64,000 bases of DNA from a virus. Every line of letters starts with the position of its first letter. The first letter of the stretch is position 1. The stretch lies in IMG/VR virus record IMGVR_UViG_3300036820_000005, positions 1-64,000 of that record; one strand, written 5' to 3'. Both the position numbers and the translations under genes were made by a program. Below are positions 27,788 through 46,727 of the stretch, piece by piece. The notes below the pieces were generated by a model. It saw only the letters and a list, made by a program, of their open reading frames with translations, made no database searches and was not told the origin of the DNA.

Positions 27788-27830
27788 GCCCGGCAGGCAG
27801 CCAGACCCGTTCGAGGCGGGTCCGGGCACG
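27788..27830 (+). ncRNA. T-arm/acceptor-like RNA hairpin, copy 1
   Basis: A 43-base element: GCCC (27788-27791), a purine-rich bulge with GGCA, stem GACCCG/CGGGTC around the T-loop-like TTCGAGG, then GGGC pairing with the first four bases, then ACG. Copies at 33217, 38986 and 46685 have equal length and compensating stem changes. Confidence 0.6.
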
Positions 27831-27870
27831 AAGCGGCCACCAGGACCGCCCATCCCAGAGAGGAAACGCC

Positions 27871-28035
27871 ATGCGCATCGACACGAGGTCCGCCCAGGCC
27901 AAGCCGAACGGATTCGGCACCTGGACCCTCAGCGGCCCCCGAGGCCAGCAGGTCGTCTACAGCGGCTGGTGGGCCGACGCCCCCGACTACCTTGCCCAGA
28001 CCTACGGCACCGGCCACTGGTTTGTGAGCGCCTGA
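27871..28035 (+). CDS. Small protein
   Basis: This 54-residue protein (WTLSGPRGQQVVYSGWW, ending GTGHWFVSA) begins at an ATG with GAGAGGAAAC upstream and lies directly behind the T-arm-like hairpin. Compact beta-like sequence; function unknown. Confidence 0.5.
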   Translation: MRIDTRSAQAKPNGFGTWTLSGPRGQQVVYSGWWADAPDYLAQTYGTGHWFVSA

Positions 28036-28040
28036 CCGCC

Positions 28041-28397
28041 ATGGACCCCTACATCGACATGACCCAGCGCTGGTGGCCCACCGACACCGCCGTCAAGCAG
28101 GCCAAGGCCGCTCTGGACGCTCAGCCGGACGCCGACCTCGCTGCCATCCCGATGGTCCAGCCCGGCAAGACCCGCGGCTACTGGAAGGTCGGCCAGGCCG
28201 TGGAGACCGTCGAAGGCCAGGTGTTCCTCGGCGTCAACGCCGACAACGGCCGCGGGGCCGTGCCTAGCTGGTCCGAAGCGCGGAACTCGGCAGCTGAAGC
28301 GGCCAGCGAGGCGCGCGGTGACCGGCCCGGCACCGTCGCCTATGCCGTCGTCGCCCGGGACGACGACCAGGTGGCCGTGTTCGAGGACGTCCTGTGA
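28041..28397 (+). CDS. Small unknown protein
   Basis: This 118-residue protein has a helical N-terminus (TDTAVKQAKAALDAQPDADL) and an alpha/beta-like end (TVAYAVVARDDDQVAVFED). Five bases separate it from the gene before. No family recognised. Confidence 0.55.
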   Translation: MDPYIDMTQRWWPTDTAVKQAKAALDAQPDADLAAIPMVQPGKTRGYWKVGQAVETVEGQVFLGVNADNGRGAVPSWSEARNSAAEAASEARGDRPGTVAYAVVARDDDQVAVFEDVL

Positions 28398-28684
28398 ACG
28401 TCCCTAGCCCCGCCGACGCCGCCCTGTTCGACCAGGCCCGCCGATTGAAGGTTCCTGGCCCGCACGGCGGCTACCGAGCCCCGGTGATCGGCCACTGGGA
28501 CCATCTCGGCTACACCCACTGCCTCGCCTGCCCGCCCGAGCCCGTCGAACCGCCCGCCCGGATCGACCCGATTGACGCCGACAACTGCGCAGCCGAAGGC
28601 GAGCGGTGCGACTTCTGCCAAATGGTCTTGCTGACCGCTGCGCTGGCGAAGTTTACGTCGTCGAGGGACGGGGAGCCCCAGTGA
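28394..28684 (+). CDS. Small Cys/His protein
   Basis: This 96-residue protein has Cys and His residues spaced like a small zinc site (YTHCLACPPE, later CDFCQM). It starts at a GTG overlapping the previous stop. Confidence 0.55.
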   Translation: MNVPSPADAALFDQARRLKVPGPHGGYRAPVIGHWDHLGYTHCLACPPEPVEPPARIDPIDADNCAAEGERCDFCQMVLLTAALAKFTSSRDGEPQ

Positions 28685-28875
28685 CCGGCCCGGCCCGCCA
28701 GGTGGCCGTCGTGGAGACGATCGACGGCGGCCGACTGCCGGTCGGCATCCACGGCGGCCTGGTGACGGTCGGCGGCGCGCTGCGGTTCACGAAGACGCAG
28801 CGGACCCAGCTGCTCGCGGCGCTGCTGGAAGCAGACCGGGCAGCCGACGACCCCGACTGGTGGGTGTGGGACTGA
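28681..28875 (+). CDS. Small unknown protein
   Basis: This 64-residue protein (VVETIDGGRLPVGIHGGLV, then KTQRTQLLAALLEA) overlaps the previous gene by GTGA and is the last gene of unit 1, ending just before promoter module 2. Confidence 0.5.
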   Translation: MTGPARQVAVVETIDGGRLPVGIHGGLVTVGGALRFTKTQRTQLLAALLEADRAADDPDWWVWD

Positions 28876-28880
28876 CCGGC

Positions 28881-28988
28881 TGACCTGCATTTTTGCCCAA
28901 AACTTCTACACTCATCATTGATTCGTTCTACGTTCTACATTAAGATGAGAAATGTAGAAAAAATAGCCCACCACCACGGAGGCAGCAG
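28881..28988 (+). promoter_or_regulatory. Promoter module 2 (divergent form)
   Basis: TGACCTGC is retained, followed by -35 TTGATT (28918-28923) and -10 TAAGAT (28941-28946) 17 bases apart. Operator half-sites lie at 28904, 28926, 28933 and, inverted, 28954; the last two form TTCTACAT, eleven bases, ATGTAGAA. This copy has more operator sites than the other modules. Confidence 0.65.
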
Positions 28989-29165
28989 ATGGCGGCCAGC
29001 ACGGCACACGACATCCACACGGACGCAGACCCGGGCAGGCCGCTCCCGGACCCCCTGCACCAGATCCCAGCCGAAGCGTACGACCAGGCCCGCAGGGTCA
29101 ACGCCCGGCTAGACGAGCTGCTGCCCTGGCGGCAGACCCCGCCCTCCAGCTGGGCGCGCGCCTGA
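28989..29165 (+). CDS. Small leader protein of unit 2
   Basis: This 58-residue protein is polar (LHQIPAEAYDQARRVNARLD, ending QTPPSSWARA) with GGAGGCAGC upstream of the ATG. It is followed by a long GC-rich hairpin instead of a T-arm-like element. Confidence 0.55.
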   Translation: MAASTAHDIHTDADPGRPLPDPLHQIPAEAYDQARRVNARLDELLPWRQTPPSSWARA

Positions 29166-29176
29166 CCGCCCGAGGA

Positions 29177-29212
29177 GGCTGCCCGGCCCGACTCCCCCCG
29201 GGCCGGGCAGCC
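29177..29212 (+). terminator. 14-pair hairpin behind leader gene
   Basis: A perfect stem (GGCTGCCCGGCCCG at 29177-29190 with its complement at 29199-29212, eight-base loop) follows the leader gene of unit 2. There is no T-run. It may attenuate transcription or stabilise the leader RNA. Confidence 0.5.
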
Positions 29213-29248
29213 GATCGGACCAGGTCAGTCCCAACCGAGAGGAGACCG

Positions 29249-29431
29249 ATGACAACCGCAACCCGCGTCGGCAAGCCAGCGGCGTACAGGTGGAACGACC
29301 ACTACCGGGACGACGGCATCTGGTGCCGCTGGTCCCTTTGCAGCGCCCCGACCCGCCTGGCCGGAACCGACGACGAACGGTGCCCGGCCGACTGCCCCGC
29401 CTCGAAGATCGAGCCGGCCCCGGCCGGCTGA
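29249..29431 (+). CDS. Small Cys-rich protein
   Basis: This 60-residue protein has four cysteines (WCRWSLC, later RCPADC) and aromatic residues near the start, suggesting a small metal-binding or disulfide fold. The ATG follows GAGAGGAG. Confidence 0.55.
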   Translation: MTTATRVGKPAAYRWNDHYRDDGIWCRWSLCSAPTRLAGTDDERCPADCPASKIEPAPAG

Positions 29432-29441
29432 AGGAGACCCA

Positions 29442-29813
29442 GTGGAAACCGTGATAGCGCAGACCGGCGCCGACAAGGCCGCCGCAGCCCTTGCCCAGAA
29501 GCTACACGCCGCCGGGTGGGACGTCCGCACCGCACAGACCGACACCGAGCCGACAACCTTCCATGACGGGACGCCGATGCACCCCGCGTTCCGGCAGGCA
29601 TCCGTCCACGTCGACGGACCCGCCTGCCTCCGGACACCGTCCCTCGCCGTGTTCTGGTACTCCGACCTGCCCACCGACGGCTTTAAGCCGCGACCCGACC
29701 GGTTCGACGGCGAGATCCGCGTTGGCGGCGTCGACCTGGAGTTCAGCTCGCAAGCCGAGATGGCCGCCTGGGTTGACTGCCTGCTCGCCATCGCAGCGGC
29801 GGTGCAGGCGTGA
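29442..29813 (+). CDS. Unknown small protein
   Basis: This 123-residue protein has an N-terminal helix (KAAAALAQKLHAAGWDVRTA) and a beta-rich middle, ending in a helix (EMAAWVDCLLAIAAAVQ). The GTG start has AAGGAGA upstream. No family recognised. Confidence 0.55.
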   Translation: METVIAQTGADKAAAALAQKLHAAGWDVRTAQTDTEPTTFHDGTPMHPAFRQASVHVDGPACLRTPSLAVFWYSDLPTDGFKPRPDRFDGEIRVGGVDLEFSSQAEMAAWVDCLLAIAAAVQA

Positions 29814-30244
29814 TGGCCAGCTCAGACGAGCTGCTAGCCGACGCCCGCCGGGCCGCCGACAGGTACGTGGCCGCGGGGCCGGACAGTTCCGAAGCGTCAG
29901 TGGCGGCCGTCGGCTGCCTGGCCGCGTTCTGCAAGCTCGACGAGCATATGAAGGCGACCGGCCAGCCGCCCGCCGAATGGGCTCCGCTGGTCAACGGCTG
30001 GGAGGCCGTGATCCCCTGCCCTGACCAGACGACCGCTGACCAGGTATGCGTCCAGATAGCCGACCGGTACGGGTGGTCCTGCGCGGTCCGCCAGCGGGAC
30101 GACGAATGGCTCGTCGCCACCCGGTGGGCGATCCGGCAGAACGCCGAGATCGCGCTCCGCAGGGTGCGGGAAGACCTCGGCTACCGCGGCCGGATGATGA
30201 CGACCTGCTGGCGGCCGGCCAGCCCGGAGGAAACCCGGAGATGA
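29813..30244 (+). CDS. Unknown protein
   Basis: This 143-residue protein is helical at the start (DELLADARRAADRYVAAG) and alpha/beta later (ADQVCVQIADRYGWSCAV). The ATG at 29813 shares a base with the previous stop; a GTG one codon earlier is possible. Confidence 0.55.
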   Translation: MASSDELLADARRAADRYVAAGPDSSEASVAAVGCLAAFCKLDEHMKATGQPPAEWAPLVNGWEAVIPCPDQTTADQVCVQIADRYGWSCAVRQRDDEWLVATRWAIRQNAEIALRRVREDLGYRGRMMTTCWRPASPEETRR

Positions 30245-30603
30245 CCGCCGCCGAGCTGAACGACGACCGCCGCACCCTGATCCAGGACGCCGCCGAAGAC
30301 GCCGGAATGACCGTCGAGATCGGCGAAGACGGCCGCGACTGGCACCTCGCAGGCCCACCGGCCAGCATCCACCGGTTCCTAATCCGCGTAGCCGCCCGTA
30401 ACTCGCTATTCGCCGGGCTGCTGGTCGACTGCCTCGAGAGCGGCGCGCGGTCAGGCAGGGACTGGACCTGGCGGTTCCCCGCCTGGGAGTGGAGCGAACG
30501 CCCCGAAGAGGACGAAGACGACTGGCCCGACATCGACGACGAAGACGACGATCCCGCACCCGCGGGCGCCACCCAGAGCACAGAGGAGACAACGCAGTCA
30601 TGA
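30241..30603 (+). CDS. Unknown protein with acidic tail
   Basis: This 120-residue protein has an alpha/beta N-terminal two thirds (AGMTVEIGEDGRDWHLAG) and a strongly acidic tail (EEDEDDWPDIDDEDDD). Such a tail could mimic DNA or bind a basic partner. It overlaps both neighbours. Confidence 0.55.
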   Translation: MTAAELNDDRRTLIQDAAEDAGMTVEIGEDGRDWHLAGPPASIHRFLIRVAARNSLFAGLLVDCLESGARSGRDWTWRFPAWEWSERPEEDEDDWPDIDDEDDDPAPAGATQSTEETTQS

Positions 30604-31058
30604 CCGAATACGCTGACCAGCTTCAATGGCAGATAGCCCCCGGCTTCACCGTCGTCCTTGACGCCGACAACGGCGTAGTCGCCGAGGTCGCCGGGCAGCG
30701 CGCCCCGGTGATCCGCCCAGACATGGCGATAGAAGCGTTCAGGCAGGCGCGAGTGGCACAGGGCGGCGCAGGCCGGTTCGCCGAGTTCCGCCTGTTCGAG
30801 GAACTGACCGTGCTCCGCGCGTTCGTCCAGGACATCGCCGCGATGCGGAAAGACGGCGAGCCCGACGACGGCGGCGAGCCGTACGACGGCAGCGACGGCC
30901 GGGCGATGGACCTGCTCGACGGCATCGTCGGCCAGGCCCGCGTGCTACTCGGCATCGACCCGAAGCCGGAACCCGAGCCCCTGCTGCCCCTCCCGCCCAT
31001 GACCAGCGACGCCGAGACCACCCGCCCCGACATCCAGCTGCCCGAGGCCGGCCAGTGA
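30600..31058 (+). CDS. Unknown protein
   Basis: This 152-residue protein has a beta-rich start (WQIAPGFTVVLDADNGVVAE), a helical centre (ELTVLRAFVQDIAAMRKDGE) and a Pro-rich end. ATGA overlap with the gene before. No family recognised. Confidence 0.55.
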   Translation: MTEYADQLQWQIAPGFTVVLDADNGVVAEVAGQRAPVIRPDMAIEAFRQARVAQGGAGRFAEFRLFEELTVLRAFVQDIAAMRKDGEPDDGGEPYDGSDGRAMDLLDGIVGQARVLLGIDPKPEPEPLLPLPPMTSDAETTRPDIQLPEAGQ

Positions 31059-31426
31059 ACCACCAGGACCAGCTCGAAGCCGCCCTCGCCGAACTGGCCA
31101 GCGGCTGCGAAACCGCCGACGACGTTGCACGGAAACTCGCCGGCGCGGGCTGCCAGGGCTACCGGAGCAACTGCTACGAATGCCCGATCGTCAAGTGGCT
31201 GCTGGCTAGGCTCCCAGGCCCCCGGCTGAACGTGATCGTCTCCCAGTTCACCGCCGAGGCCACCTGGGAGTCAGCCGAAACCTGTGCCGACCCCGGCGTG
31301 CTCCCCGAGTACGACGAGGAGGCGACAGCCGACCTGCCCGACGTGCTCCGCGCGTTCCTCATGGCGTTCGACGCCGAGACCGCCGACACCGTCTATCCCG
31401 AGCTGGATCCGGCAGGCTCCCGGTGA
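31055..31426 (+). CDS. Paralogue A of a Cys-motif family
   Basis: This 123-residue protein shares its first 50 residues with the next gene product: L-A-x-L-A-S-G-C-x-T...VARKLAGAGCQGYR, then C-x-E-C-P-I-V-x-W. The C-terminal half is unique and acidic. The start is GTG overlapping the previous stop. Confidence 0.6.
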   Translation: MNHQDQLEAALAELASGCETADDVARKLAGAGCQGYRSNCYECPIVKWLLARLPGPRLNVIVSQFTAEATWESAETCADPGVLPEYDEEATADLPDVLRAFLMAFDAETADTVYPELDPAGSR

Positions 31427-32025
31427 ACGGCCTGGACGACGCGCTGTGCGACCTGCTCGCCGCCGCGCTTGGCGAGCTCGCCGCAGGCTGCCTGACCCCC
31501 GGCGAAGTCGCGGGGAAGCTGCACCAGGCCGGCTGCCGCGGGGAGCGGGACAACACGTGCGGCTGCCCGGTAGCGGTGTGGGTCACGCGGCGGGTCAGGA
31601 TCCCGCTCGGCCAGGCCCTCATCGTCGGCTCCGACAACGTCGAGATCGTGGCGGCCGCCGAAGGCGTGATGACGCAGGCGGGGATGGGCGACGTCCTGGC
31701 CACCGCGACCGTCCCCCGGGTGGTCGCCCAGTTCATCGGCGAGTTTGACCACACAGGCCGCTGGCCGTACCTCGAGGGAGAGCCGGTACCGGCCGACGGG
31801 GAGCACTTCGAGGTGTACCCGTGCGGCGCCGGGATCGGGGCGTATGACACGCGGCCGTTCGGCCGCCTGCAGCTCGACCAGGCCATGGCCGCCGCCTGTG
31901 AGGCCAGCGTGCCCGGCCGCCTCCACGCCGTCGAGCGGGTCACCGTCCGCGACGGCCTCACCAGGAGGAACTGCATCGCGGAGTACCGCGACGGCAAGCC
32001 CGTGCCCCTTACCCAACCCCAGTAG
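31423..32025 (+). CDS. Paralogue B of the same Cys-motif family
   Basis: This 200-residue protein repeats the N-terminal domain of its neighbour (LGELAAGCLTPGEVAGKLHQ, then CGCPVAVWV) and adds an alpha/beta C-terminal domain. The pair arose by duplication and divergence. It ends just before an operator dyad. Confidence 0.6.
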   Translation: MNGLDDALCDLLAAALGELAAGCLTPGEVAGKLHQAGCRGERDNTCGCPVAVWVTRRVRIPLGQALIVGSDNVEIVAAAEGVMTQAGMGDVLATATVPRVVAQFIGEFDHTGRWPYLEGEPVPADGEHFEVYPCGAGIGAYDTRPFGRLQLDQAMAAACEASVPGRLHAVERVTVRDGLTRRNCIAEYRDGKPVPLTQPQ

Positions 32026-32042
32026 TTCTACGTAGCGTAGAA
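32026..32042 (+). promoter_or_regulatory. Perfect operator dyad
   Basis: TTCTACGTAGCGTAGAA is a perfect dyad with a three-base centre, the same form as at 12066. It lies 22 bases before the next start codon and probably marks an internal promoter. Confidence 0.6.
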
Positions 32043-32064
32043 AGACGATCGGAGGAACGCGGAA

Positions 32065-32370
32065 ATGACCGACTTCATGATGGGCGCCCCCCGGCCCGCA
32101 TTCACCCCGCCCGAGGACGCGGAACAGCCGGACACCATCACGCTGGAATGGGACACGTCCGGGGTGTGCACGGCGACCATCCCGCTCGACCAGGCCCGCG
32201 AGGTGTTCGGCCTCGGCGGGACGCCCGACGTCGAGCTGGCGTGGAAGGTCGCCACCCTGGCCAAGGCCTCCCCGTCGATGCTGTCGAAGCTCAGCCCGTA
32301 CATCGACGCGGCTCAGAACTACCCGGTCAGCCTCCGCAAGGTGGACGGCACCCCGCCGGGTGAGCTGTGA
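32065..32370 (+). CDS. Paralogue of the 46.3 kb leader protein
   Basis: This 101-residue protein contains PLDQAREVFGLGGTPDVEL, which recurs almost unchanged in the protein at 46264-46677 (LDQAREVFGLGGTPD), with similar flanking strands (TITLEWDTSGVCTATI). A shared small alpha/beta domain is evident; function unknown. Confidence 0.6.
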   Translation: MTDFMMGAPRPAFTPPEDAEQPDTITLEWDTSGVCTATIPLDQAREVFGLGGTPDVELAWKVATLAKASPSMLSKLSPYIDAAQNYPVSLRKVDGTPPGEL

Positions 32371-32627
32371 TGGACGGCACGCCGCCACTGCCGCAGGTCA
32401 CCGTCGCGGCCGGCGTCCGGCGGACGTTCGCCGCGGTCGTCCAGGAGACGAAGGACCGGCGCGGCTGGTCGGCCCGCGACCTGGCGCGGGCCGCGCACCT
32501 GTCGTCCCACTGGACGGTCCACAACTGCCTGACCGGCAAGGACATCAGCCTCTCCAGCGCCCTGAAGATCGCCGTCGCGCTCGGCCTCGACACCGGTGAC
32601 CTCGGCCAGGCCGGAGACCTCCGGTGA
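32370..32627 (+). CDS. XRE-type HTH protein
   Basis: This 85-residue protein is an HTH of the XRE class (WSARDLARAAHLSSHWTVHN, then SLSSALKIAVALGLD). The ATG shares a base with the previous stop; a GTG one codon upstream is possible. It lies behind the operator dyad at 32026 and may read it. Confidence 0.75.
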   Translation: MDGTPPLPQVTVAAGVRRTFAAVVQETKDRRGWSARDLARAAHLSSHWTVHNCLTGKDISLSSALKIAVALGLDTGDLGQAGDLR

Positions 32628-32776
32628 ACCCGGGCAGCCCGCCGCGGTCGTCGGCGTTCGAGGCTGGCCGCCGGTTCGGCGTTGCGCTCGGCGTCCTGAT
32701 CTGCGCGGTACTCAACGGCCTGCTCGTCGCCGCCGCGGTGTTCGCCGACATCACCGCGTGGCGGTCGCTGGGGTGA
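32624..32776 (+). CDS. 50-residue membrane protein
   Basis: GTG overlaps the HTH stop. One long hydrophobic helix (FGVALGVLICAVLNGLLVAA) is flanked by an Arg-containing N-terminus. Function unknown. Confidence 0.5.
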   Translation: MNPGSPPRSSAFEAGRRFGVALGVLICAVLNGLLVAAAVFADITAWRSLG

Positions 32777-32971
32777 GTGGTGAAACCGAAGCGGAGGAGG
32801 ACGCGGGCGCAGGCCTGCGGCTCCAAGAAGAAGCACCCGGACAAGGCAGCAGCCCAGGAGCACCTGGCCCGCCTTGTCCGGGGCGGCGCGTCCCCGGCCG
32901 CGCTCAACACCTACAAGTGCCCGCACTGCCCGGCCTGGCACGTCGGCCACGTAGCCCCGGCGAGCCGCTGA
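32777..32971 (+). CDS. Small basic zinc-ribbon-like protein
   Basis: This 64-residue protein starts with a Lys/Arg run and has CGSKKKHPDKAAAQEHLARL and the end KCPHCPAWHVGH, a pattern repeated among small actinobacterial phage proteins. Start GTG (two in tandem). Its stop codon is part of promoter module 3. Confidence 0.6.
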   Translation: MVKPKRRRTRAQACGSKKKHPDKAAAQEHLARLVRGGASPAALNTYKCPHCPAWHVGHVAPASR

Positions 32972-33080
32972 CCTGCGAAAATTCCCGGTCTTTGTGCCCA
33001 TTCCTATTGTTCGTTCTACGCTCCTCGGATATTATTTTTACATAAGCAAAAAACATCCAGACCAGCCAGAGGAGCCCGAA
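32968..33080 (+). promoter_or_regulatory. Promoter module 3
   Basis: CTGACCTGCG and GTCTTTG are followed by -35 TTGTTC (33007-33012), a 17-base spacer with TTCTACG (33014), and -10 TATTAT (33030-33035). The second operator is reduced to TTTTAC. The downstream leader, including AAAAAACATCCAGACC, matches module 1 nearly base for base. Confidence 0.75.
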
Positions 33081-33209
33081 ATGACCCCCAACTACATCCC
33101 CGGCCTCTCCGACGACGATGCCTGCCTGTATGTAGCCGGGATCGTCGACGTCCAGACCGGCTGCCCCTGCGAGATCTGCGTCAACGAGCTGGCCGAGAAG
33201 GACATCTAG
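33081..33209 (+). CDS. 42-residue leader protein of unit 3
   Basis: This acidic 42-residue protein ends with a C-x-C-x-x-C motif (CPCEIC). The leader peptide of unit 4 carries the same spacing (CGCWEC). It is followed seven bases later by the second T-arm-like hairpin. Confidence 0.55.
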   Translation: MTPNYIPGLSDDDACLYVAGIVDVQTGCPCEICVNELAEKDI

Positions 33210-33216
33210 ACCAGCA

Positions 33217-33259
33217 GCCCGGCCGGCAGGCGTCACGGTTCGAGCCCGTGACGGGCACG
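33217..33259 (+). ncRNA. T-arm/acceptor-like RNA hairpin, copy 2
   Basis: GCCC (33217-33220) pairs with GGGC (33253-33256). The inner stem GTCACGG/CCGTGAC surrounds TTCGAGC, a canonical T-loop text. Total length is 43 bases and it ends in ACG. Confidence 0.65.
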
Positions 33260-33294
33260 CAGAACCCAACCCCCAACCCAGAGGGAGGCCCACA

Positions 33295-34299
33295 GTGGCC
33301 GGCAAGACGAACTACAAGACGATGCCCCTGGCCGAACTGGAAGGGCTGGCAGCGAACATGGCCGCCCAGTCCCGGCGCCCGTCGACCGCGCTGAAGGCGG
33401 CCCTGAACGCAGCCCGCGCCGACGCGATGCACGAGGCCGCGGCCGAGCAGACCGAGGCCGACCGGCTGGCGGCGAAGTACGACGCGCTGGACGCCGGAGC
33501 GAAGGCCGAGGCGCAGCGGCTGAGCGACAAGTACAGCGAGTCGGGCGCCCGGCTGGACGCCGCGATCGCCGAGCAGCCCGAGGACCTCGCCCCTGCCCCG
33601 GAGCCAGAGATGACCGACCAGCAGATCGACGACGCGCTGGAGATCGTCACCCTGGCCGAGGAGATCGCCGCCCAGGACGCGGCAGGCGAGCCCGAACCGG
33701 CCGGCGACGACGCTGGCGTGATTGAGGTCGCCCCGAACGTGGTTGTCGTCAGCCCGGACGCCGTGGACGAGTTCATCGACCGGGTGGTCGAGGAGGCGCT
33801 GCAGGCTGGCCAGGCCACGCCGGACGACGCGGCCCGCTCGAAGGCCCGCCGGACCGAGTTCACGACGGCGTTCGCCCGGCTGCTCGACGGCGGGTTCACC
33901 GAGGCCCAGGCGGGCGAGGCGCTGGCCGGCGAGTTCCCCGCCGAGGTCGCCGAGTACGAGGCGATGCACGCGATGGACGCCCGGATGGTCTCCACCACGC
34001 CGCCGGAGCGCGACCCGCTGGACATCGACATGAGCACCGGCGAGGTGAGGGTGGACCGGCCAGCGACCCAGCCGGTACCGCCCGCAGGGTCCTTCGCGCG
34101 GGTCGAGGCGACGCCCTACCCGGTCACGTTCTACCGGCCGGTCCTGAAGATCATCGTCCCCGACCTGGACGACCCGGCCAAGGAGACGGTCGAGGAGCTG
34201 ACCTGCGAGCACGTAGAGAAGTACGGGCACGGGTCCGAGGACGCCGCGATCAAGTGCGCCCGGTCCATGGCCTACAAGCGGGGCCTGCGGATCGCCTGA
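33295..34299 (+). CDS. Helical protein with shared C-terminal Cys/His domain
   Basis: This 334-residue protein is Ala/Glu/Asp-rich and helical over residues 1-270, with coiled-coil-like stretches. The last 65 residues (PYPVTFYRPVLKIIVP, CEHVEKYGHG, CARSMAYKRGLRIA) recur in the protein at 35047-35520. The shared domain probably binds a metal (Cys-His, Cys) and may target both proteins. Start GTG with GAGGGAGG upstream. Confidence 0.65.
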   Translation: MAGKTNYKTMPLAELEGLAANMAAQSRRPSTALKAALNAARADAMHEAAAEQTEADRLAAKYDALDAGAKAEAQRLSDKYSESGARLDAAIAEQPEDLAPAPEPEMTDQQIDDALEIVTLAEEIAAQDAAGEPEPAGDDAGVIEVAPNVVVVSPDAVDEFIDRVVEEALQAGQATPDDAARSKARRTEFTTAFARLLDGGFTEAQAGEALAGEFPAEVAEYEAMHAMDARMVSTTPPERDPLDIDMSTGEVRVDRPATQPVPPAGSFARVEATPYPVTFYRPVLKIIVPDLDDPAKETVEELTCEHVEKYGHGSEDAAIKCARSMAYKRGLRIA

Positions 34300-34385
34300 G
34301 CCGCCAGGCCGTCCGGCCGGGCTGTCCTTCCCCGCTAGCCCGGCCGGACCCCCGGCGCCTCAGCCGAACCCAGAAAGGAGAGGAA

Positions 34386-38814: not shown

Positions 38815-38976
38815 ATGGACGTCCGCAAGACCGAACTCGACACCGGCCAGATCCACAATGCGGACGGAACGGTGAGCGTGTACCTGTACAGCGACCGCGG
38901 CCCGCAGCGCTGGACCTTCGACCAGGCCATCGAGCATGACCCCGGCTGCGGCTGCTGGGAGTGCATCACCTTCTAG
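38815..38976 (+). CDS. 53-residue leader protein of unit 4
   Basis: This small protein (VSVYLYSDRGPQRWTFDQAI) ends with CGCWECITF. Like the leader of unit 3 it carries C-x-C-x-x-C near its end, and it is followed ten bases later by a T-arm-like hairpin. Confidence 0.55.
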   Translation: MDVRKTELDTGQIHNADGTVSVYLYSDRGPQRWTFDQAIEHDPGCGCWECITF

Positions 38977-38985: not shown

Positions 38986-39028
38986 GCCCGATCGGCAAGC
39001 GTCACGGTTCGAGCCCGTGACGGGCACG
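38986..39028 (+). ncRNA. T-arm/acceptor-like RNA hairpin, copy 3
   Basis: Same structure as copy 2: GCCC (38986-38989) with GGGC (39022-39025), inner stem GTCACGG/CCGTGAC around TTCGAGC, then ACG. The bulge differs from copy 2 in three of ten bases while both stems are identical. Confidence 0.65.
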
Positions 39029-39060: not shown

Positions 39061-39450
39061 ATGACCGCCCACACCGCAGACACCTGCTGGGCCGACCCGC
39101 TCAGCCGCAGGGAACGCGCCGAGCTGGCCCGGAAGCTGGCCAGCTGGTGCCAGCGCTTCTACAACACCCCGGCTGGCACCCCGGACGCCGTGTACTCGCA
39201 GATCCTCGCCTCCGCTGAGATGTCCGACCTGCACCTGGACGTGACCGAGCGCGCGGCGGTTCCGCCCAAGATCTGCCAGATGACCGACGAGCAGCTGGAC
39301 TACGAGCTGGCGTCAGCGGAGGAAGCCGAGGACGGTGCCCGCGCCGGCCGGATCGAACGCGAGCAGGCCGCACGCGAGATAGACGAGCCCCACGACGACA
39401 CCCCGTCGCTGGAAGACCGCGGCCTGCACCTCGGCAGCTACAGCAGCTGA
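39061..39450 (+). CDS. Unknown helical protein
   Basis: This 129-residue protein is helical and charged (SRRERAELARKLASWCQRFY, later ELASAEEAEDGARAGRIERE). The ATG has GAGGAGAA upstream. No family recognised. Confidence 0.55.
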   Translation: MTAHTADTCWADPLSRRERAELARKLASWCQRFYNTPAGTPDAVYSQILASAEMSDLHLDVTERAAVPPKICQMTDEQLDYELASAEEAEDGARAGRIEREQAAREIDEPHDDTPSLEDRGLHLGSYSS

Positions 39451-39453
39451 CCG

Positions 39454-40102: not shown

Positions 40103-40315
40103 CTCCTATTCGCGCTGGCCACCCGAGAGCTGTTCGTCCGCGACGAAGACGAGTTCACCGGCGAATACACCCTGAAGCTGGGCCTGATCCAGGCGGTCGC
40201 GTCGACTATCGGCCACGGCATGGTCTGTCGGGAATCCGCGACGCAGATCGCTGAGGCCGTGCTCCGTACCGTCGCCGCACATCAGCAGTTCGAGCCCGCC
40301 GCACCGCCGTTCTGA
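40103..40315 (+). pseudogene. Open frame after in-frame TAG, no standard start
   Basis: Directly after the TAG at 40100-40102 the same frame continues for 70 codons with normal coding bias (LFALATRELFVRDEDEFTG, later ATQIAEAVLRTVAAHQQ) to a TGA. No ATG or GTG occurs before codon 40 (ATG at 40220). It is either the far half of a gene broken by a nonsense change, a readthrough extension, or a separate gene using a rare start. Confidence 0.45.
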
Positions 40316-40325
40316 AAGGACCGCC

Positions 40326-40868
40326 ATGATCCTGAACCGCCCGCTCCGCGCGAACGACGTCGAGGTTGAGACGGTCCGCCGGGCACGCTGCAAGATCCCT
40401 GACTGCGGCTGGAAAGGCGGCGAGCACCAGCTGTACCCGGGTGCGAACGCCGACCGGCAAGGGCACCTCGACTGGCACCGCAACGGCGAACCGGCCCAGC
40501 CTGAGCCTGCCTGGCCGGTCCCGCACCCGTGCGTCAACTTCACCAACGCGATCAGCGGCCACGGCTTCAACCAGTGCTACCGCGACCCTGACCAGGCGTT
40601 CCGCGACGCATTCGTCGCCCCGCTGAGGCCGTTCAACAACACGCGGATCAGCGTCTGCTACTGCGACGTCGCCCACGAGCCGGACCCGGAGCCCGACCCA
40701 GCGGGCCTGATCATCGGCTACGACTACCGCACCCGCAACGACCTGATGGCCGTGCTGCGCGCCCGGACGGTTGTGGAACCGGTGTGGCGTTGCGACCACT
40801 CCCACCCGGACGAAGACACAGCGGTCGAATGCGCGACCGCCGAGCGTGACCGCCGGGCCGTCCTGTGA
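40326..40868 (+). CDS. Unknown protein with Cys/His sites
   Basis: This 180-residue protein has an early zinc-finger-like stretch (CKIPDCGWKGGEHQLYPG, ending in HLDWH) and a later CDHSHPDEDTAVEC. The ATG has AAAGGA upstream. No family recognised. Confidence 0.6.
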   Translation: MILNRPLRANDVEVETVRRARCKIPDCGWKGGEHQLYPGANADRQGHLDWHRNGEPAQPEPAWPVPHPCVNFTNAISGHGFNQCYRDPDQAFRDAFVAPLRPFNNTRISVCYCDVAHEPDPEPDPAGLIIGYDYRTRNDLMAVLRARTVVEPVWRCDHSHPDEDTAVECATAERDRRAVL

Positions 40869-41344
40869 CCGCCGGCCAGCTGGACCTGTTCGCCGACCTG
40901 CTCGACGAGGAGACGGGCGACGTGGTGAGGACACCAGCCGCCGCGCACCAGCTGTTCATCGGCTGGTCGGACAACCCGGCCCCGGCCCCCGCGTTCCACC
41001 TGCTCTACCACGCCTCATGCAAGACGTGCCGGGGCTGGTCGAGCGGCGGCCACGACCGGGAGAACGGCGCCGTCGAAGCCGCCATGGACCACGCCTGGCC
41101 CGGCTGGCGGACCTTGCCCGTCGTCGCCCGCAAACCCCACGAGAACGGGCAGCAGTGGCTCGCCAAGGTGGCCGCCGTCTACCCGCCCGGCTGGGTGGCT
41201 GCTGGCGGGCCGGTCCGGACGACCCGCCCGGAGTGGGGCACCCGCCACTACTGGGACGGCTCCATCTGGGACATCGGCGTCCCGGTAACCGGCCCTCACC
41301 CTGCACCTAACCGCACCGACACACAAGGAGAAACTGATGCCTGA
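40865..41344 (+). CDS. DUF6349-like protein
   Basis: This 159-residue protein starts QLDLFADLLDEETG, has a Cys-x-x-Cys (SCKTCRGW), a long helix ending in DHAWPGW, and YPPGWVAAGGPVRTTR near the end. The order resembles actinophage DUF6349 proteins; function unknown. GTG overlaps the previous stop. Confidence 0.5.
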   Translation: MTAGQLDLFADLLDEETGDVVRTPAAAHQLFIGWSDNPAPAPAFHLLYHASCKTCRGWSSGGHDRENGAVEAAMDHAWPGWRTLPVVARKPHENGQQWLAKVAAVYPPGWVAAGGPVRTTRPEWGTRHYWDGSIWDIGVPVTGPHPAPNRTDTQGETDA

Positions 41345-42839
41345 CACCCTGACCGTCGAATACGTAGACCCGGCCACCGTCCTGCTCGGCGGGAACATCC
41401 GCCGAGACCCGCGGCTCGACGCCGACTTCGTCGCGTCGGTCCGCCGTAGCGGGGTCCGGACGCCATGCCCGGCGGTGCGGACCGCCGATGGGCAGGTCAT
41501 GCTCGAGTTCGGCTCCCGCCGCCTCGCCGCCGCTGCCCTGATCGTCGACGGCATCCCCGCCGGTGACGACCGCCGCCTTGTGCTGCCGGTGTTCGTCACC
41601 GGCGACGAGAACACCACCCGCGACGGGCAGGTCACGCGGCTGTGCGACCAGTTCGACGAGAACGAGCACCGCGCCGGCCTGACCGCCCAGGACAAGGCCG
41701 CGTTCGTGCAGGCCCTCCTGGACTTCAAGGTCCCGCAGGCCGAGATCCGGAAGCGGACCGGGCTGGACAAGGCGGCTCTTGCCAGCGCCGTGATGGTGGC
41801 CGCGTCGCCCCGGCTGATGGCCGGCCCGCCGCTGCCCGACATGGTGATGGCCGCGCGGATCGCCGAGTTCGAGACCACAGGCGATGAGGAGGCCGTGACC
41901 GCGCTGCATGCCGAGGTGGCTTCCGGGCCGGGCGCGTTCCAGCACGCCGCCCAGCTGTTCACCGACACCCAGGCCGAACGGTTCGGGAAACGAGACCTGA
42001 TAGCGAAGCTGGCCGCCGCCGGGGTCTTCCTGCTCGCCGAGAACGACGACGGTGTGGTGGTGACACCGGCTGGGACGCAAATCACCTGGCGGCAGCACAT
42101 CAACCAGCTCACCGACGCCGCCGGGAAGAACCTGACCGAGAAGAACCACGCCAAGTGCCCCGGCCACGCCGCCTACCTGCGCCGCGGCTGGCAGGGCGGC
42201 GGCCGCGTCTGGGATGCGGTCTACGTCTGCGCCGACCCGGAAGTCCACGGCCACCTCGAACGCAACGCCAGCAGCAGCAGCAAGAAGGACCCGAGCCCGG
42301 ACGCGCAGGAGCAGGCCGCTAAGCAGCGCCGGATCGTGATCGACTGCAACAAGAAGTGGCGGTCCGCCCGTACCGTCCGCCAGAACTGGCTGAGGAACGA
42401 GCTGCTGCCCCGCAAGGCCGCCCCCGACGACGCGCTGCCAGTGATCTTCGGCGCGATCAGCGGCTCCTGGTTTGACTCCTGGGACCGGTCCCTGTCCGAG
42501 GCGATCAGCGGCGGCCACGGCCTGGCCTGCGAACTGCTCGGCGTCAAGGTGGAGGCTAGCGCGGGGGAGGCTGTCGCGGCCGCGCTTCGGGCCGCGTCCC
42601 CGGCCCGCCAGCAGGTCATCGCGCTCGGCCTCGTCCTGGCCGCCTGGGAGGCCCGCCTCACCGACGACACCTGGCGGTCGTACGTCGACGAGCTCGACGG
42701 GCACGGGTACTACCGGGACAAGACCTCGATTGCGGGGCACTACCTGCTGCTCTTGGAGGCGTGGGGATACGCCCTGTCTGACATTGAGAAGCTGCCCGCC
42801 GACGCGACCCGCGCCGCCCTGGCCGCCGCGAAGGGCTGA
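41337..42839 (+). CDS. ParB-family protein
   Basis: This 500-residue protein has a ParB N-terminal domain (YVDPATVLLGGNIRRDPRLD, then VMLEFGSRRLAAAAL) and an HTH-like helical domain (LTAQDKAAFVQALLDFKVP, KRTGLDKAALASAVM), the layout of ParB/KorB partition proteins. The C-terminal 300 residues are element-specific. It could hold the element at segregation sites or regulate genes. No ParA gene is visible in the window. Confidence 0.8.
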   Translation: MPDTLTVEYVDPATVLLGGNIRRDPRLDADFVASVRRSGVRTPCPAVRTADGQVMLEFGSRRLAAAALIVDGIPAGDDRRLVLPVFVTGDENTTRDGQVTRLCDQFDENEHRAGLTAQDKAAFVQALLDFKVPQAEIRKRTGLDKAALASAVMVAASPRLMAGPPLPDMVMAARIAEFETTGDEEAVTALHAEVASGPGAFQHAAQLFTDTQAERFGKRDLIAKLAAAGVFLLAENDDGVVVTPAGTQITWRQHINQLTDAAGKNLTEKNHAKCPGHAAYLRRGWQGGGRVWDAVYVCADPEVHGHLERNASSSSKKDPSPDAQEQAAKQRRIVIDCNKKWRSARTVRQNWLRNELLPRKAAPDDALPVIFGAISGSWFDSWDRSLSEAISGGHGLACELLGVKVEASAGEAVAAALRAASPARQQVIALGLVLAAWEARLTDDTWRSYVDELDGHGYYRDKTSIAGHYLLLLEAWGYALSDIEKLPADATRAALAAAKG

Positions 42840-42842
42840 CCG

Positions 42843-43355
42843 GTGACCGAACAGCAGACCGACCCCGCGGCCGCCACTGTCGCCAAGGTCAAGCAGGACC
42901 ACCAGCAGCACGTCTGCACGAACCACCCTCAGCCCGGTATCTGCGTCTCACGCTGCCCCGCCGACCGATGGCCCTGCGCGCCGTACCGGGCCGCGCTGGC
43001 CGTCGAGGCCGCCCTCGCCCAGCACCGCCGGTCGCTGACCCCGGCCTACGGTATGGGTTCGGGCGACGGCCACGGCAAGCACTACTGCGCTGGCCTGTGC
43101 CACGTCAGCATCAACCACGACACCGTCTGGGAGCCGTGGCCGTGCTTCCCGTACCTGGAGATCCTCGCCGCCCTGACCGGAACGACCGTAGTCGACCTGA
43201 CGGTCCGCCAGCTGGCCAACCATGACGTCGGCTGCGGGATCTGCCAGGACCTCAAGTCTCGGCCTGCCGGCCTGACCCGGTGCGGGTACAAGGCCGACCT
43301 GGCCGCCCGGTGGCGCCGCGCCCTGCGCGAGGCAGGAAGGACCCCCGATGCCTGA
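42843..43355 (+). CDS. Cys-rich unknown protein
   Basis: This 170-residue protein has spaced cysteines (VCTNHPQPGICVSRC, later DVGCGICQDLK). Starts at a GTG a few bases behind the ParB gene. No family recognised. Confidence 0.55.
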   Translation: MTEQQTDPAAATVAKVKQDHQQHVCTNHPQPGICVSRCPADRWPCAPYRAALAVEAALAQHRRSLTPAYGMGSGDGHGKHYCAGLCHVSINHDTVWEPWPCFPYLEILAALTGTTVVDLTVRQLANHDVGCGICQDLKSRPAGLTRCGYKADLAARWRRALREAGRTPDA

Positions 43356-43743
43356 CCCCCGGGCCAACCCCAACGGCCACCCGTGCCCGCCCTGGTGCGT
43401 CGTCGACCATGAGACCGACGCCGGCGGCGGTCACCGGTACATCTTCCACGGCAACCAGACCGCCCGGATCGAGGTGCCCGGGAAGCCGGGGCGCATGGAT
43501 GACAGTATCCACGTCCGCGCCATCCACGGCGGCTACGCGGACGACCAGCCGCAGGTCGACATGGGCGCCGACCGGTCCGGCGTGGACGGCCGGAGCCCGC
43601 ACGCCTGGATCGCCCCGCGCGACGCAGGGGACCTGGCCGTCATCATCGACATGCTGGCGAAGGCCTCGCCCGCGCAGCACCGCGAGCTCGCCGCCGCGAT
43701 CCGCAAGGCCGCCGCCGACATCACGGAGGCCCAGAATGCCTGA
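43348..43743 (+). CDS. DUF6907-like protein
   Basis: This 131-residue protein has the early signature CPPWCVVDHETDAGGGHRYI, typical of actinobacterial DUF6907 proteins, followed by a beta-rich part and a C-terminal helix. Such genes cluster on mobile elements; function unknown. Confidence 0.6.
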   Translation: MPDPRANPNGHPCPPWCVVDHETDAGGGHRYIFHGNQTARIEVPGKPGRMDDSIHVRAIHGGYADDQPQVDMGADRSGVDGRSPHAWIAPRDAGDLAVIIDMLAKASPAQHRELAAAIRKAAADITEAQNA

Positions 43744-44035
43744 CCCCCGGCGCACCACGAAGCAGGAACTGGAGCAGGCCCAGGCCGACGCGATCCGGGC
43801 CGCCCTCACCGCACGACCCGGCCTGACCGCCTACCAGCTCGGCTGGTACGTGCCCACCGACCTGCCAGCACCAGACGAGCAGGTCCCCGCCGGCCCGGCC
43901 GACCGGCCCGCGCCGATGGTGCTCACCCTGCGCCTCCTCGGCCAGCTCGAGCAGGCCGGCAAGGCCCGCTCCGAACCCGACCCGGCAGGCGCCCGCTGGT
44001 ACTGGTCCTCACCAGCCCGCCGAGGGGACTCCTAA
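43736..44035 (+). CDS. Small winged-helix-like protein
   Basis: This 99-residue protein is compatible with a winged helix (IRAALTARPGLTAYQLGWYV, later LRLLGQLEQAGKARSE, RWYWSS). It may be a regulator of the cluster. Confidence 0.5.
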   Translation: MPDPRRTTKQELEQAQADAIRAALTARPGLTAYQLGWYVPTDLPAPDEQVPAGPADRPAPMVLTLRLLGQLEQAGKARSEPDPAGARWYWSSPARRGDS

Positions 44036-44037
44036 CG

Positions 44038-44304
44038 GTGGCGACCGTAGCTGACCTGACCCCCGGCGGGCTGGTAACCGGCTCCGACATCAACGGACCT
44101 ATCCGTGCCGTGTTCGTTGCCCGCATCACCCACCCTGAGTACCCGGGGCTGATGCTGGTCATCTGGCGCCTCGACGACGTGCCCGGCGGAACCTGGTCGT
44201 TCGACGCCCTGCGCCCTGGCCAAGACATCGGCGAGCTAGCGCGATCCACCAGCCGGGACCGCGCAGACCGGCTCAGCGCCGTACTCCTGGACACGCCATG
44301 GTGA
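44038..44304 (+). CDS. Small beta-rich protein
   Basis: This 88-residue protein looks like a small beta barrel (VTGSDINGPIRAVFVARITH, LMLVIWRLDDVPGG). Start GTG two bases behind the previous stop. Function unknown. Confidence 0.55.
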   Translation: MATVADLTPGGLVTGSDINGPIRAVFVARITHPEYPGLMLVIWRLDDVPGGTWSFDALRPGQDIGELARSTSRDRADRLSAVLLDTPW

Positions 44305-44528
44305 CCACACCGGCCGATGACACCCACGAATGCCCGAAGAACGGCTGCGTCCGCCGCGTCCCTGCCCACCAGCTGATGTGCCCTGCCGACTGGCGGTCCG
44401 TCCCTGCAGACCTCCAGTCGGCCGTGTGGAGGACCTGGCGCGGCGGCCGCGGCAAGGGCACCCGCGCGCACCTGGCCGCGATGGAAGCCGCGATCGACGC
44501 GGTCAACGGCCAGGAAACCCTGTTCTGA
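44298..44528 (+). CDS. Small Cys protein of an actinophage family
   Basis: This 76-residue protein shows a pattern repeated in actinophages and their hosts: HECPKNGCVRRVPAHQLMC, then DWRSVP, a Trp-rich helix and GKGTRAHLAAMEAAIDAV. A small zinc-binding protein of unknown role. Confidence 0.6.
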   Translation: MVTTPADDTHECPKNGCVRRVPAHQLMCPADWRSVPADLQSAVWRTWRGGRGKGTRAHLAAMEAAIDAVNGQETLF

Positions 44529-44563
44529 TCCCCCGCCTCAGACCCGAGAAGAGAGCTGACCCC

Positions 44564-44590
44564 ATGACCAGATTGGACCCCGCCCGATGA
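44564..44590 (+). CDS. Eight-residue leader peptide
   Basis: A mini-frame MTRLDPAR ends at a TGA that overlaps the ATG of the HNH gene. It could couple translation; it may also be chance. Confidence 0.3.
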   Translation: MTRLDPAR

Positions 44591-45408
44591 GCCCGATCCG
44601 CCCGGAGAACCGGGACCGCTACCCGCAGGACTGGCCGCAGATCAGCCTCGCGGTGAAGGAACGCGCCGGGTGGCGGTGCGAGTGCCGGGGCGAATGCGGC
44701 CGCGGCACGCACGCCGGCCGCTGCCCGAACCGTCACGGTGGCCTGGCCTACGGCACCGCTACGACCGTCGTCGTCCTGACGACGGCACACCTCGACCACA
44801 CACCGGAGAACTGCGACCAAGACAACCTGCGGGCGATGTGCCAGGGCTGTCACCTCCACTACGACCGCGACCACCACGCCCGCACGGCTGCCCGGACCCG
44901 CGCCCAGGCGGCCACAGCCGGCATGGACCCGCTACCCGACCTGACCCCCTGCAAGGAGCCCCTGACCGTGGCGACCTCGACTGACCTGCCCGACCCCGAA
45001 CCGCCGCTGTACGACGAGGAGCACGGCCTGGCCGAGATGGCCGCCGTCCGCTCCAACCCCGAAGACGAGACGACCCGGCACCTCCTCGCCCTAGCGGGCC
45101 AGCTGGCCCGCCATATGGCCCGCCACTTCGAGCCCGGACAGCTGGAGGCCGCAGGCCGCGCCCTCCTGATCGGCGCAGCGTCCTGCGCTGACCTGGCGAA
45201 CGACGGCGTATCACCCGTCCTGCTGGTCAACCTGCTCGGCTACACCGCCGAACGGATGGTGACCAGCGCCCGCACCTGGCAAGACGACCAACCCGACGTG
45301 CCCGACACACCCGAGTTTGACCCCGGCCCAGAGTGCGACGACCAAGGCGGCGCGACAGAACGCCCCTACCTCAACGCCGCCGACGAACCCGACTGGACCA
45401 CCCCCTAA
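44587..45408 (+). CDS. HNH endonuclease with helical extension
   Basis: This 273-residue protein begins with an HNH domain (CECRGECGRG, CPNRHG, then HLDHTPENCDQDNLRAMCQG and CHLHYDRDHH, residues 25-100). A second part (about 150-230) is helical. The HNH type is common in phage and plasmid clusters, often near a terminase. Function in packaging or recombination is inferred. Confidence 0.8.
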   Translation: MSPIRPENRDRYPQDWPQISLAVKERAGWRCECRGECGRGTHAGRCPNRHGGLAYGTATTVVVLTTAHLDHTPENCDQDNLRAMCQGCHLHYDRDHHARTAARTRAQAATAGMDPLPDLTPCKEPLTVATSTDLPDPEPPLYDEEHGLAEMAAVRSNPEDETTRHLLALAGQLARHMARHFEPGQLEAAGRALLIGAASCADLANDGVSPVLLVNLLGYTAERMVTSARTWQDDQPDVPDTPEFDPGPECDDQGGATERPYLNAADEPDWTTP

Positions 45409-45430
45409 CCCGCCCCCGCTTGCCCCCAAG

Positions 45431-45513
45431 TTCTACGTAGCCCAGAATGGGTCTCTACACACCACGAACGGAGACCCACCATGACACCCGCCACCAGGAC
45501 CACCCGGCCATGA
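45431..45513 (+). promoter_or_regulatory. Half operator and mini-frame before the terminase-like gene
   Basis: TTCTACGTAGCCCAGAA (45431-45447) is a partly decayed copy of the dyad found at 32026. A ten-codon frame (45481-45513) then overlaps the ATG of the next gene. The spacing suggests a separate promoter here. Confidence 0.45.
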
Positions 45514-46154
45514 CAGGCGAGACGAGCGGGGCGGCGCCGGACCCGAAGCACTGCGGCGGCAAGAAGAAGCAGAGCGAGGGCACCTGTACCCGGCCAGCGG
45601 GGTGGGGGACGCAGCATCAGGGTGTCGGGCGGTGCAAGCTGCATGGCGGGAACACCCCGTCGCACGTGGCGGCGGCCGAGCAGGTGATGGCCGAGCAGGC
45701 GGCGGCCCGGTTCGGGCTGGACATGACGGAGATCTCGGGCGGGCAGGCGCTGCTGAGGGAGGTGCGGCGGTCGGCGTCGATGGTGGACTGGCTGGCGTTG
45801 CAGGTGGCTGGGCTGGCCCCGGACGACATGATCTGGGGGCTGGCGGGGCGGCGGGTTACCCCGCCTGCGGCGGCTGGCGGGACTCCTCAGGTGGTGGTGG
45901 AGCAGCGGTCCCGGATCCACCCGTGGGTGCAGATGCTCGAGCGGGAACGGCTGGTGCTGGCCAAGGTGGCTGCTGAGGCGCACCGGTGCGGGATCGAGGA
46001 GCGGCTAATGCGGCAGGTGGAGCTCGACGGGGCGCTGATCGCGAAGGTGATCGCCGCGGTGCTGAACGACCCGGAGCTGGAGATGAGGCCGGAGCAGCGG
46101 GCCAGGTTCGGGACGGTCGTGCCGCGGCACCTGCGGGCGGTCGACGCGGCCTGA
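45510..46154 (+). CDS. Terminase-small-subunit-like protein
   Basis: This 214-residue protein starts with CGGKKKQSEGTC and GVGRCKLHGGNTPSH, a Cys/His motif seen in actinophage proteins encoded just before the large terminase, followed by helices. An HNH gene directly upstream strengthens the parallel, but the expected large terminase does not follow; promoter module 5 does. Its codons favour G at the third position (ctg, cgg, ggg) more than its neighbours, so it may have arrived separately. Confidence 0.55.
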   Translation: MTGETSGAAPDPKHCGGKKKQSEGTCTRPAGWGTQHQGVGRCKLHGGNTPSHVAAAEQVMAEQAAARFGLDMTEISGGQALLREVRRSASMVDWLALQVAGLAPDDMIWGLAGRRVTPPAAAGGTPQVVVEQRSRIHPWVQMLERERLVLAKVAAEAHRCGIEERLMRQVELDGALIAKVIAAVLNDPELEMRPEQRARFGTVVPRHLRAVDAA

Positions 46155-46263
46155 CCTGCGGAAATCAAGGCGTCTTTGTGTGCCATTCTCCTTGTTCGTT
46201 CTACACACGTCGGATAGTATTTCTACATAGTCAAAAAAGTGAGTGAGCGAAAAGGAGAGGCAC
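46151..46263 (+). promoter_or_regulatory. Promoter module 5
   Basis: CTGACCTGCGG and GTCTTTG precede -35 TTGTTC (46192-46197), a 17-base spacer with TTCTACA (46199), -10 TAGTAT (46215-46220) and TTCTACA (46221). It is the last operator-bearing promoter in the window; I see no further one until at least 62.3 kb. Confidence 0.75.
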
Positions 46264-46677
46264 ATGGACGCGTCCTTCGGCCAGGTGGAGGGGCCGCAGA
46301 TCAACTGGGCCGCGCGCGGCTACGCAGAAAGCGACCCCGACCAGCAGAAGTGCCCGGCGATGGATGACGAACTGCACCCGGACGACAGGCACCCCGCGGA
46401 CTGCGCGGCTAGCAGCCCCGGCGACGACTACGCCACGAAAATCACGGTCGAGTGGACCGAGACGTTCAAGGTGACCGCCATGGTCAACCTCGACCAGGCC
46501 CGCGAGGTGTTCGGCCTCGGCGGCACCCCCGACCGCGAGGTCGAGGAGAAGGTCAGGGCGCTGCTGGCCTGGAACGCCTACGCGGCGATCCGCTGCCTTG
46601 CCCGGTTCGGCAACAGCGCCGCGGCGAACGGCCACCAGCTCCTCGCGATGAACGGTGTCCCGCGCGGCGACTGGTAA
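46264..46677 (+). CDS. Leader protein of unit 5, paralogue of 32.1 kb protein
   Basis: This 137-residue protein shares LDQAREVFGLGGTPD and the preceding strand with the protein at 32065. It has AAGGAGAGG before the ATG at 46264; an in-frame GTG at 46243 is less likely. A T-arm-like hairpin follows after seven bases. Confidence 0.6.
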   Translation: MDASFGQVEGPQINWAARGYAESDPDQQKCPAMDDELHPDDRHPADCAASSPGDDYATKITVEWTETFKVTAMVNLDQAREVFGLGGTPDREVEEKVRALLAWNAYAAIRCLARFGNSAAANGHQLLAMNGVPRGDW

Positions 46678-46684
46678 CCCCACT

Positions 46685-46727
46685 GCCCGGCTGGCAGCCA
46701 CCCCTGTTCGAGGCGGGGGCGGGCACG
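46685..46727 (+). ncRNA. T-arm/acceptor-like RNA hairpin, copy 4
   Basis: GCCC (46685-46688) pairs with GGGC (46721-46724). The inner stem CCCCTG/CGGGGG (one G-T pair) surrounds TTCGAGG, and ACG follows. The inner stem sequence differs completely from copies 1-3 but keeps pairing and the 43-base length. Confidence 0.6.

Follow-up and report, generated by a model that had tools for sequence, protein, structure and literature searches.

A tRNA-elbow-like RNA element repeated between the early genes of actinophages, and its possible cleavage by host RNase P

A small RNA element resembling the elbow and acceptor arm of tRNA was characterized in a 64,000-nucleotide (nt) stretch of viral DNA (IMG/VR record IMGVR_UViG_3300036820_000005, positions 1–64,000; hereafter the window), which forms the early half of a 111,056-base actinophage record. 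The element almost certainly belongs to a real, tRNA-elbow-like RNA family, and this family is apparently an undescribed, widespread phage RNA class. As to its function, we give about an even chance to the proposal that it is an anticodon-less mimic of the tRNA elbow that is cut by host RNase P, perhaps by RNase Z too, by which neighbouring mRNAs would be unlinked.

An initial annotation of the window, made from the sequence alone, had described four 43-base elements, each with two paired stems, a GGCA-containing bulge, a TTCGAG loop and a terminal ACG, and all four were recovered at the positions it gave. E1 (27788–27830; core 27788–27827 followed by A-C-G) lies 7 nt past a TAG stop codon (27778–27780), the next ATG being at 27871. 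E2 (33217–33259; core 33217–33256) is likewise separated by 7 nt from a TAG (33207–33209) and is followed by a GTG at 33295, whereas the spacer of E3 (38986–39028; core 38986–39025; TAG at 38974–38976; next ATG at 39061) is 9 nt. E4 (46685–46727; core 46685–46724) lies 7 nt past a TAA (46675–46677) and has a ribosome-binding site and the start ATG 46741 immediately downstream. All are on the plus strand. A covariance model built from 44 relatives, the four window copies among them, scored E1 to E4 at 61.1, 65.1, 59.9 and 62.2 bits, respectively, compared to 16.9 bits for the next best site in the window (Infernal E-values are rough here). Four is the number within the window; the record as a whole holds nine copies, all on the plus strand and scoring 51.8–65.1 bits, with the next site at 21. 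Pairing of the stems was as described, except that the outer stem comprises 5 bp (GCCCG/CGGGC) instead of 4, and the inner stem 6 bp in all four copies instead of 6 or 7. The T-loop is 7 nt long and closed by G-C.

The 40-base core has the consensus GCCCG-AxN-GGCAy-N1-C-A-[6]-TTCGAG-N2-[6]-CGGGC and is followed by purine-C (98% each). Its shape, as established by comparison of relatives, is that of a miniature tRNA consisting of elbow and acceptor arm, without an anticodon arm. The two stems form a coaxial helix of 11–12 bp equivalent to acceptor plus T-stem, with a canonical T-loop, TTCGAGN, on its end, and the bulge NGGCA is read as a mini D-loop closed by one pair (x-y, columns 7–13). In this reading the N1-C that follows the mini D-loop pairs with the last two T-loop bases, docking the D-like loop on the T-loop. 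In E2, the outer stem corresponds to 33217–33221/33252–33256, the inner stem to 33233–33238/33246–33251 and the T-loop to 33239–33245; within the mini D-loop region (33223–33231), C33223-G33229 closes CGGCA, whose GG is G18G19-like, and G33230-C33231 pair with G33244-C33245 of the T-loop. The free GG may be positioned so as to touch bases 55 and 56 of the T-loop, as it does in tRNA; since those bases do not vary, this contact is an inference. Two of the tertiary pairs had not been described in the initial annotation, whose comparison with the tRNA T-arm and acceptor was borne out by the T-loop, the coaxial helix, GG(N)A, the covarying D/T contact and the purine-C. A T-loop of type TTCRANN closed by G-C was present at the end of an approximately 12-bp coaxial helix. 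The elements were not predicted to be functional tRNAs, the sole tRNA detected by ARAGORN in the window being a tRNA-Gly at 19454–19528. Among 256 copies, G1 was found in 252, R73 in 251 and C74 in 250; N-1 was mostly A, while a T that could pair with A73 occurred in only four; and N75 was T or G in 235, with CCA absent. These frequencies are not independent counts, because contigs of one phage lineage are over-represented.

Covariation was analysed in an alignment of the 54 non-redundant sequences. Two-sided compensatory changes were found in 12 of the 14 pairs, and 99.9% of cells paired, compared to 68% in shuffled and 30–44% in slid alignments, so that compensatory changes exceeded both controls, as in a structured RNA family. 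For the outer stem and T-stem the height of the pairing is partly a matter of construction, because pairing was a selection criterion; this does not apply to the types of pairs. The strongest covarying pairs were those of the outer stem, the T-stem, x-y (columns 7–13) and N1-N2 (columns 14–29). The last two, which played no part in sequence selection, ranked third and fifth in corrected mutual information, were paired in 54 of 54 sequences with four Watson-Crick types each, and together showed 49 double changes compared to 14.1 after shuffling, with pairing of only 8–33% when slid. The adjoining pair 15–28 is an invariant C-G. The four window copies, from which covariation had first been claimed, are weak evidence by themselves, whereas the evidence from the 54 relatives is overwhelming. 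A lack of covariation and of conservation elsewhere had been named as grounds for giving up the element; covariation and relatives were both found. Single-sequence folding did not reliably separate elements from shuffles, and the minimum-energy fold of E3 departs from the comparative structure. The structural case therefore rests on comparison, since single-sequence folding sometimes misses the structure.

When viral contigs were first scanned with a sequence pattern, 69 stretches were obtained, with about 50 distinct true copies after stem pairing was required. With a relaxed pattern, 78 viral stretches were obtained compared to only 10 in the genome collection, the latter from actinobacterial genomes or metagenome-assembled genomes (MAGs), a MAG labelled Gemmatimonadota, Hymenobacter, Pedobacter and Dysgonomonas. 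The Bacteroidota copies lie in a few prophages. Scanned plasmids contained no copies, and evenly drawn sets of 296 Actinomycetota and 296 Bacteroidota genomes had no matches beyond the seed genomes. Among named phages, matches were found at 694 places in 153 records, mainly from phages of Streptomyces (113 records) and Mycobacterium (26), but also of Gordonia (6), Microbacterium (4), Arthrobacter (2) and Actinomyces (1); one further named-virus match falls under the tRNA-Leu of a Stenotrophomonas virus. The highest copy number was 15, in one phage contig. Among the matches listed, the element sites almost always carried no annotated feature. A DNA similarity search with one flank gave no match, and the sites returned by a scan with an AT-rich pattern were mostly tRNAs or due to chance. 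The initial annotation had known of no described element of this kind. No Rfam family was found (no match at the gathering threshold in an Rfam 15 scan of the window), nor any description in full-text searches, which covered open papers but neither subscription papers nor most preprints. In phage D29 (L384, 28000–49127), a T-arm-like hairpin on the minus strand, ccaggTTCGATTcctgg followed by cTACCC-AC, is doubtful and could be a degenerate variant.

The element usually begins 6–9 nt past a stop codon. In the 256 copies the distance from stop codon to element peaks sharply at 6–8 nt, with few copies closer than 6 nt, and the Bacteroidota copies L087, L088 and L089 also have a spacing of 7 nt. 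The next start codon follows at a median of 41 nt past the element, and a second hairpin is often found between the purine-C and the ribosome-binding site (mean z −1.68, standard error 0.13, compared to −0.23 and +0.11 in control stretches; n = 157). All copies were on one strand in 61 of the 62 loci with three or more copies, the element being on the sense strand; Gordonia phage Cafasso, in which operons run both ways, is the exception. In the four annotated phages Joe, phiHau3, Damien and Papyrus, the overlap of an element with coding sequence never exceeds 10 nt, and an element is present in 28 of the 39 same-strand gaps that measure 60 nt or more. The location behind leader genes given in the initial annotation thus holds locally, while elsewhere the element is found in most gaps between early genes; the suggested role in dividing leader from operon is better taken more broadly, as punctuation between cistrons of any kind. 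In phage LittleE, an element upstream of gp34 (L146:15943–15993, minus strand) overlaps the opposite-strand gp35 as annotated, the start of which may be misannotated.

Several gaps without the element in Damien and Papyrus were found to hold other T-loop minihelices with purine-C, in which the bulge is GATGGTCGNA, AACGGTTTTCG or absent. In eight phage stretches plus the window, a descriptor with the real T-loop gave 52 sites, compared to 0–3 for eleven permuted loops. All loci gathered to that point contained 527 sites, which were sorted into classes, the counts of which depend on the search patterns that fetched the loci: F1, the main element (319 sites, mostly 11 bp); F2, with GGTCR (99 sites, 85 of them with exactly 12 bp); and F3, with GGTT (55 sites). 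Most of the remaining sites have another GG bulge. F2 is similar to F1 in stop spacing (6–9 nt in 40 of 63), and its inner-stem G-U frequency equals that of tRNA T-stems (5.9% each). T-loop minihelices with helices of 11–12 bp and differing GG bulges thus make up a superfamily. Individual variants with other bulges or none, in gaps lacking the main type, were seen on the plus strand at L144:10016, 11332 and 12548 and at L227:4360, 4746, 5182 and 7486. Cafasso (L147) carries a mixed array of 12-bp variants on the minus strand (35396, 34526, 33892, 33307, 31871 and 21150), opposite to its two plus-strand copies, and several of these lie a few nt past a stop codon. Several variant classes occur in one phage on the minus strand of L229 (9235, 7275, 6690 and 285), a 116-kb contig with a GC content of 0.41; this lower-GC phage suggests that the superfamily may reach beyond actinophages.

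Across the differing bulges, the T-loop, the distance from elbow to helix end, the unpaired N-1, G1, R73 and C74 remain constant. The substrate features recognized by bacterial RNase P are the T-stem-loop, the 3′ RCC and N-1, and the enzyme also cleaves pATSer, a model substrate in which the acceptor and T stems are intact (PMC10465520). Its cleavage site is set by a constant distance to the elbow, and any RNA that offers the stacked T-arm and acceptor is accepted, the D-loop being dispensable (PMC4919913); cleavage of phage RNAs and polycistronic mRNAs by this enzyme has been listed (PMC11143913). Because the constant features are those that bacterial RNase P reads, we favour, at about even odds, a cut made by host RNase P at the element's 5′ edge, RNase Z being the main alternative or partner; processing of operon mRNA by one of these enzymes, as suggested in the initial annotation, is still the function with the best support. 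That copies occur in two phyla suggests a host factor that is universal. Type-A RNase P RNA was found in four host genomes, and a GGTAAAC motif, which we take to be the P15 loop that pairs with RCC, is present in the type-A RNAs of three hosts of copies, Actinocatenispora, Kribbella and Hymenobacter.

The comparative structure, sense orientation, position shortly past stop codons, restriction to phages and multiplicity of the element are established by the data; its cleavage is a proposal. As a cis-acting RNA inside a polycistronic phage mRNA, the element would be bound by host RNase P, which would measure from elbow to cleavage site and cut at the 5′ edge of the mimic, while RNase Z may cut the 3′ edge. 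The upstream mRNA would then end a few bases past its stop codon, and the element and the second hairpin would together give the downstream mRNA a folded 5′ end, which should make it resistant to 5′-dependent decay. By this means a single early transcript would be turned into separately stable and separately expressed mRNAs, and the stop spacing may represent the nearest position left folded by a terminating ribosome. The broader proposal, that phages of two phyla use the elbow-mimic superfamily as general mRNA punctuation, with RNase P cutting behind most early-gene stops, is put forward tentatively, at slightly below an even chance. Several observations weigh against RNase P cleavage. C75 was found in only 13 of the 256 copies, and the RCC contact would therefore be partial; the helix has 11 bp in 300 of 319 F1 copies compared to 12 in tRNA; and G-U makes up 1.3% of main-type inner-stem pairs compared to 5.9% in tRNA T-stems. 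Besides, the variant classes were found by patterns already containing the T-loop, scans of phiC31 and Bxb1 were negative with many related phages also lacking the element, and much of the conservation could be due to other host factors that bind the elbow (RNase Z, T-loop-modifying enzymes, CCA enzyme).

Of these factors RNase Z (3′ tRNase) can be considered on its own. The element might be its site, or a dual substrate of RNase P and RNase Z, with the main cut after R73, so that the 5′ end of the downstream mRNA would be C74 or would lie within the second hairpin. RNase Z holds the elbow in a clamp, and its main antideterminant is a 3′ CCA (PMC4919913); the element has no CCA, and its second hairpin starts right after the cut position. 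The invariant C74 and the strong preference for G1 would, however, be unexpected for RNase Z alone, and the conservation of N-1 points to the 5′ side, which makes this explanation unlikely. Somewhat more unlikely, the elbow fold could stay uncut and block exonucleases at the upstream 3′ end or the downstream 5′ end. A compact tertiary fold right behind the stop codon, with the second hairpin right after it, would suit such a decay barrier; a plain GC-rich hairpin would suffice for this, and the strict T-loop, GG and purine-C would be left unexplained. We regard as doubtful to the same degree that the element is the site of a phage or host RNA-binding protein in translational or antitermination control (put/nut-like), its likeness to tRNA being coincidental. 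It is repeated in early operons near ribosome-binding sites, and the two-hairpin layout is reminiscent of HK022 put RNA; yet the phages that carry it are unrelated, have different sets of genes and are spread over two phyla, and the variant bulges keep tRNA-specific features and not a common non-tRNA motif.

The spacing peak at 6–8 nt with its sharp lower edge resembles the spacing of pseudoknot-stimulated recoding sites, and a structure at a fixed distance past the stop codon might act in readthrough, insulation or coupling of translation. This is improbable, as the spacing can also be explained as the closest approach that is not unfolded by the terminating ribosome, the next gene shows no preferred frame (58/73/76) and in 49 of 178 cases readthrough would stop after at most 16 codons; on the latter two grounds stop-codon readthrough or fusion to the next gene was rejected. 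A DNA-level role (linker for module recombination, single-stranded DNA hairpin site, operator or promoter) would fit the repetition at gene borders and the scarcity of G-T pairs in the main type, but is very improbable, since no promoter, operator or other sequence motif was found in the flanks, copies keep to one strand in nearly all multi-copy loci, stems vary freely while pairing is kept, and the T-loop and D/T contacts are RNA features. Least credible of all is an intrinsic terminator without a U-tract: the hairpins are GC-rich and lie between genes, and U-less terminators are reported from phiC31, but phiC31 lacks the element, the conserved loop and bulge would be purposeless, and no U-tract follows, T being a minority base at all 45 downstream positions except position 3.

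The window encodes integrase, ERF recombination protein, helicase, ParB-like and HNH proteins, and the other half of the record terminase, portal, major head and tape-measure proteins. Adjacent to the elements, all on the plus strand, the small gene upstream of E1 (27454–27780, 108 aa) had no Pfam or PHROG match; the genes downstream of E1 (27871–28035, 54 aa) and E3 (39061–39450, 129 aa) and upstream of E4 (46243–46677, 144 aa) had no Pfam match; and the gene downstream of E2 (33295–34299, 334 aa) had only one Pfam match, below threshold. An AT-rich stretch ahead of a small gene (33000–33060, plus strand) in this GC-rich phage is a possible promoter region. The predicted tRNA-Gly (TCC; plus strand) lies within the 3′-terminal part of a long open frame (18649–19536) that adjoins a DNA methylase/GNAT fusion gene.

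Compared to known systems, the T-arm and D-loop without a normal D-stem are shared with the tRNA-like domain of tmRNA and with bacterial Y-RNA (YrlA) modules, which belong to long stable RNAs and not to phage mRNAs. The best Rfam resemblance, to mascRNA-menRNA (RF01684), was 14.1 bits, far below the gathering threshold of 42.5. The tRNA-like RNAs mascRNA and MEN-beta, which form the end of a longer transcript, resemble the element in their small size and in having a T-arm, an acceptor and a reduced D-arm, and MALAT1 (the mascRNA parent transcript) and MEN-beta are listed as RNase P substrates; the phage element differs in its length of about 40 nt, in lacking a remnant of the anticodon arm and in its many copies between cistrons. 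Minimal RNase P substrates of the pATSer type have the same intact acceptor and T-stem, T-loop, 3′ RC(C) and unpaired N-1, but are man-made and end in RCCA, whereas the phage element occurs in nature, with a docked mini D-loop and mostly 11 bp, and ends in RC followed by T or G. The C4 antisense RNA of P1/P7 (RF01695; no window match at the gathering threshold) and phage M3 RNA are processed by bacterial RNase P (PMC11143913); these are phage RNAs too, but not tRNA-elbow mimics in intercistronic arrays.

The element represents a phage RNA class with a tRNA-like tertiary contact backed by covariation, and corrects the annotation of well-studied phages in which its sites carry no feature. If cleaved as proposed, it would supply natural minimal substrates for RNase P studies and suggests how long early operons may set mRNA ends without a promoter and terminator for each gene, a hypothesis directly testable with phages already in laboratory use. 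In animal mitochondria, tRNAs between genes mark the sites at which mRNAs are cut (tRNA punctuation), and in the phages tRNA-shaped RNAs likewise lie between genes. The mitochondrial marks are real tRNAs, whereas the phage marks are anticodon-less mimics within operons at which cutting is putative; if they do mark mRNA cut sites, mitochondrial punctuation would have a counterpart in bacteria, one that consists of very small natural substrates of RNase P.

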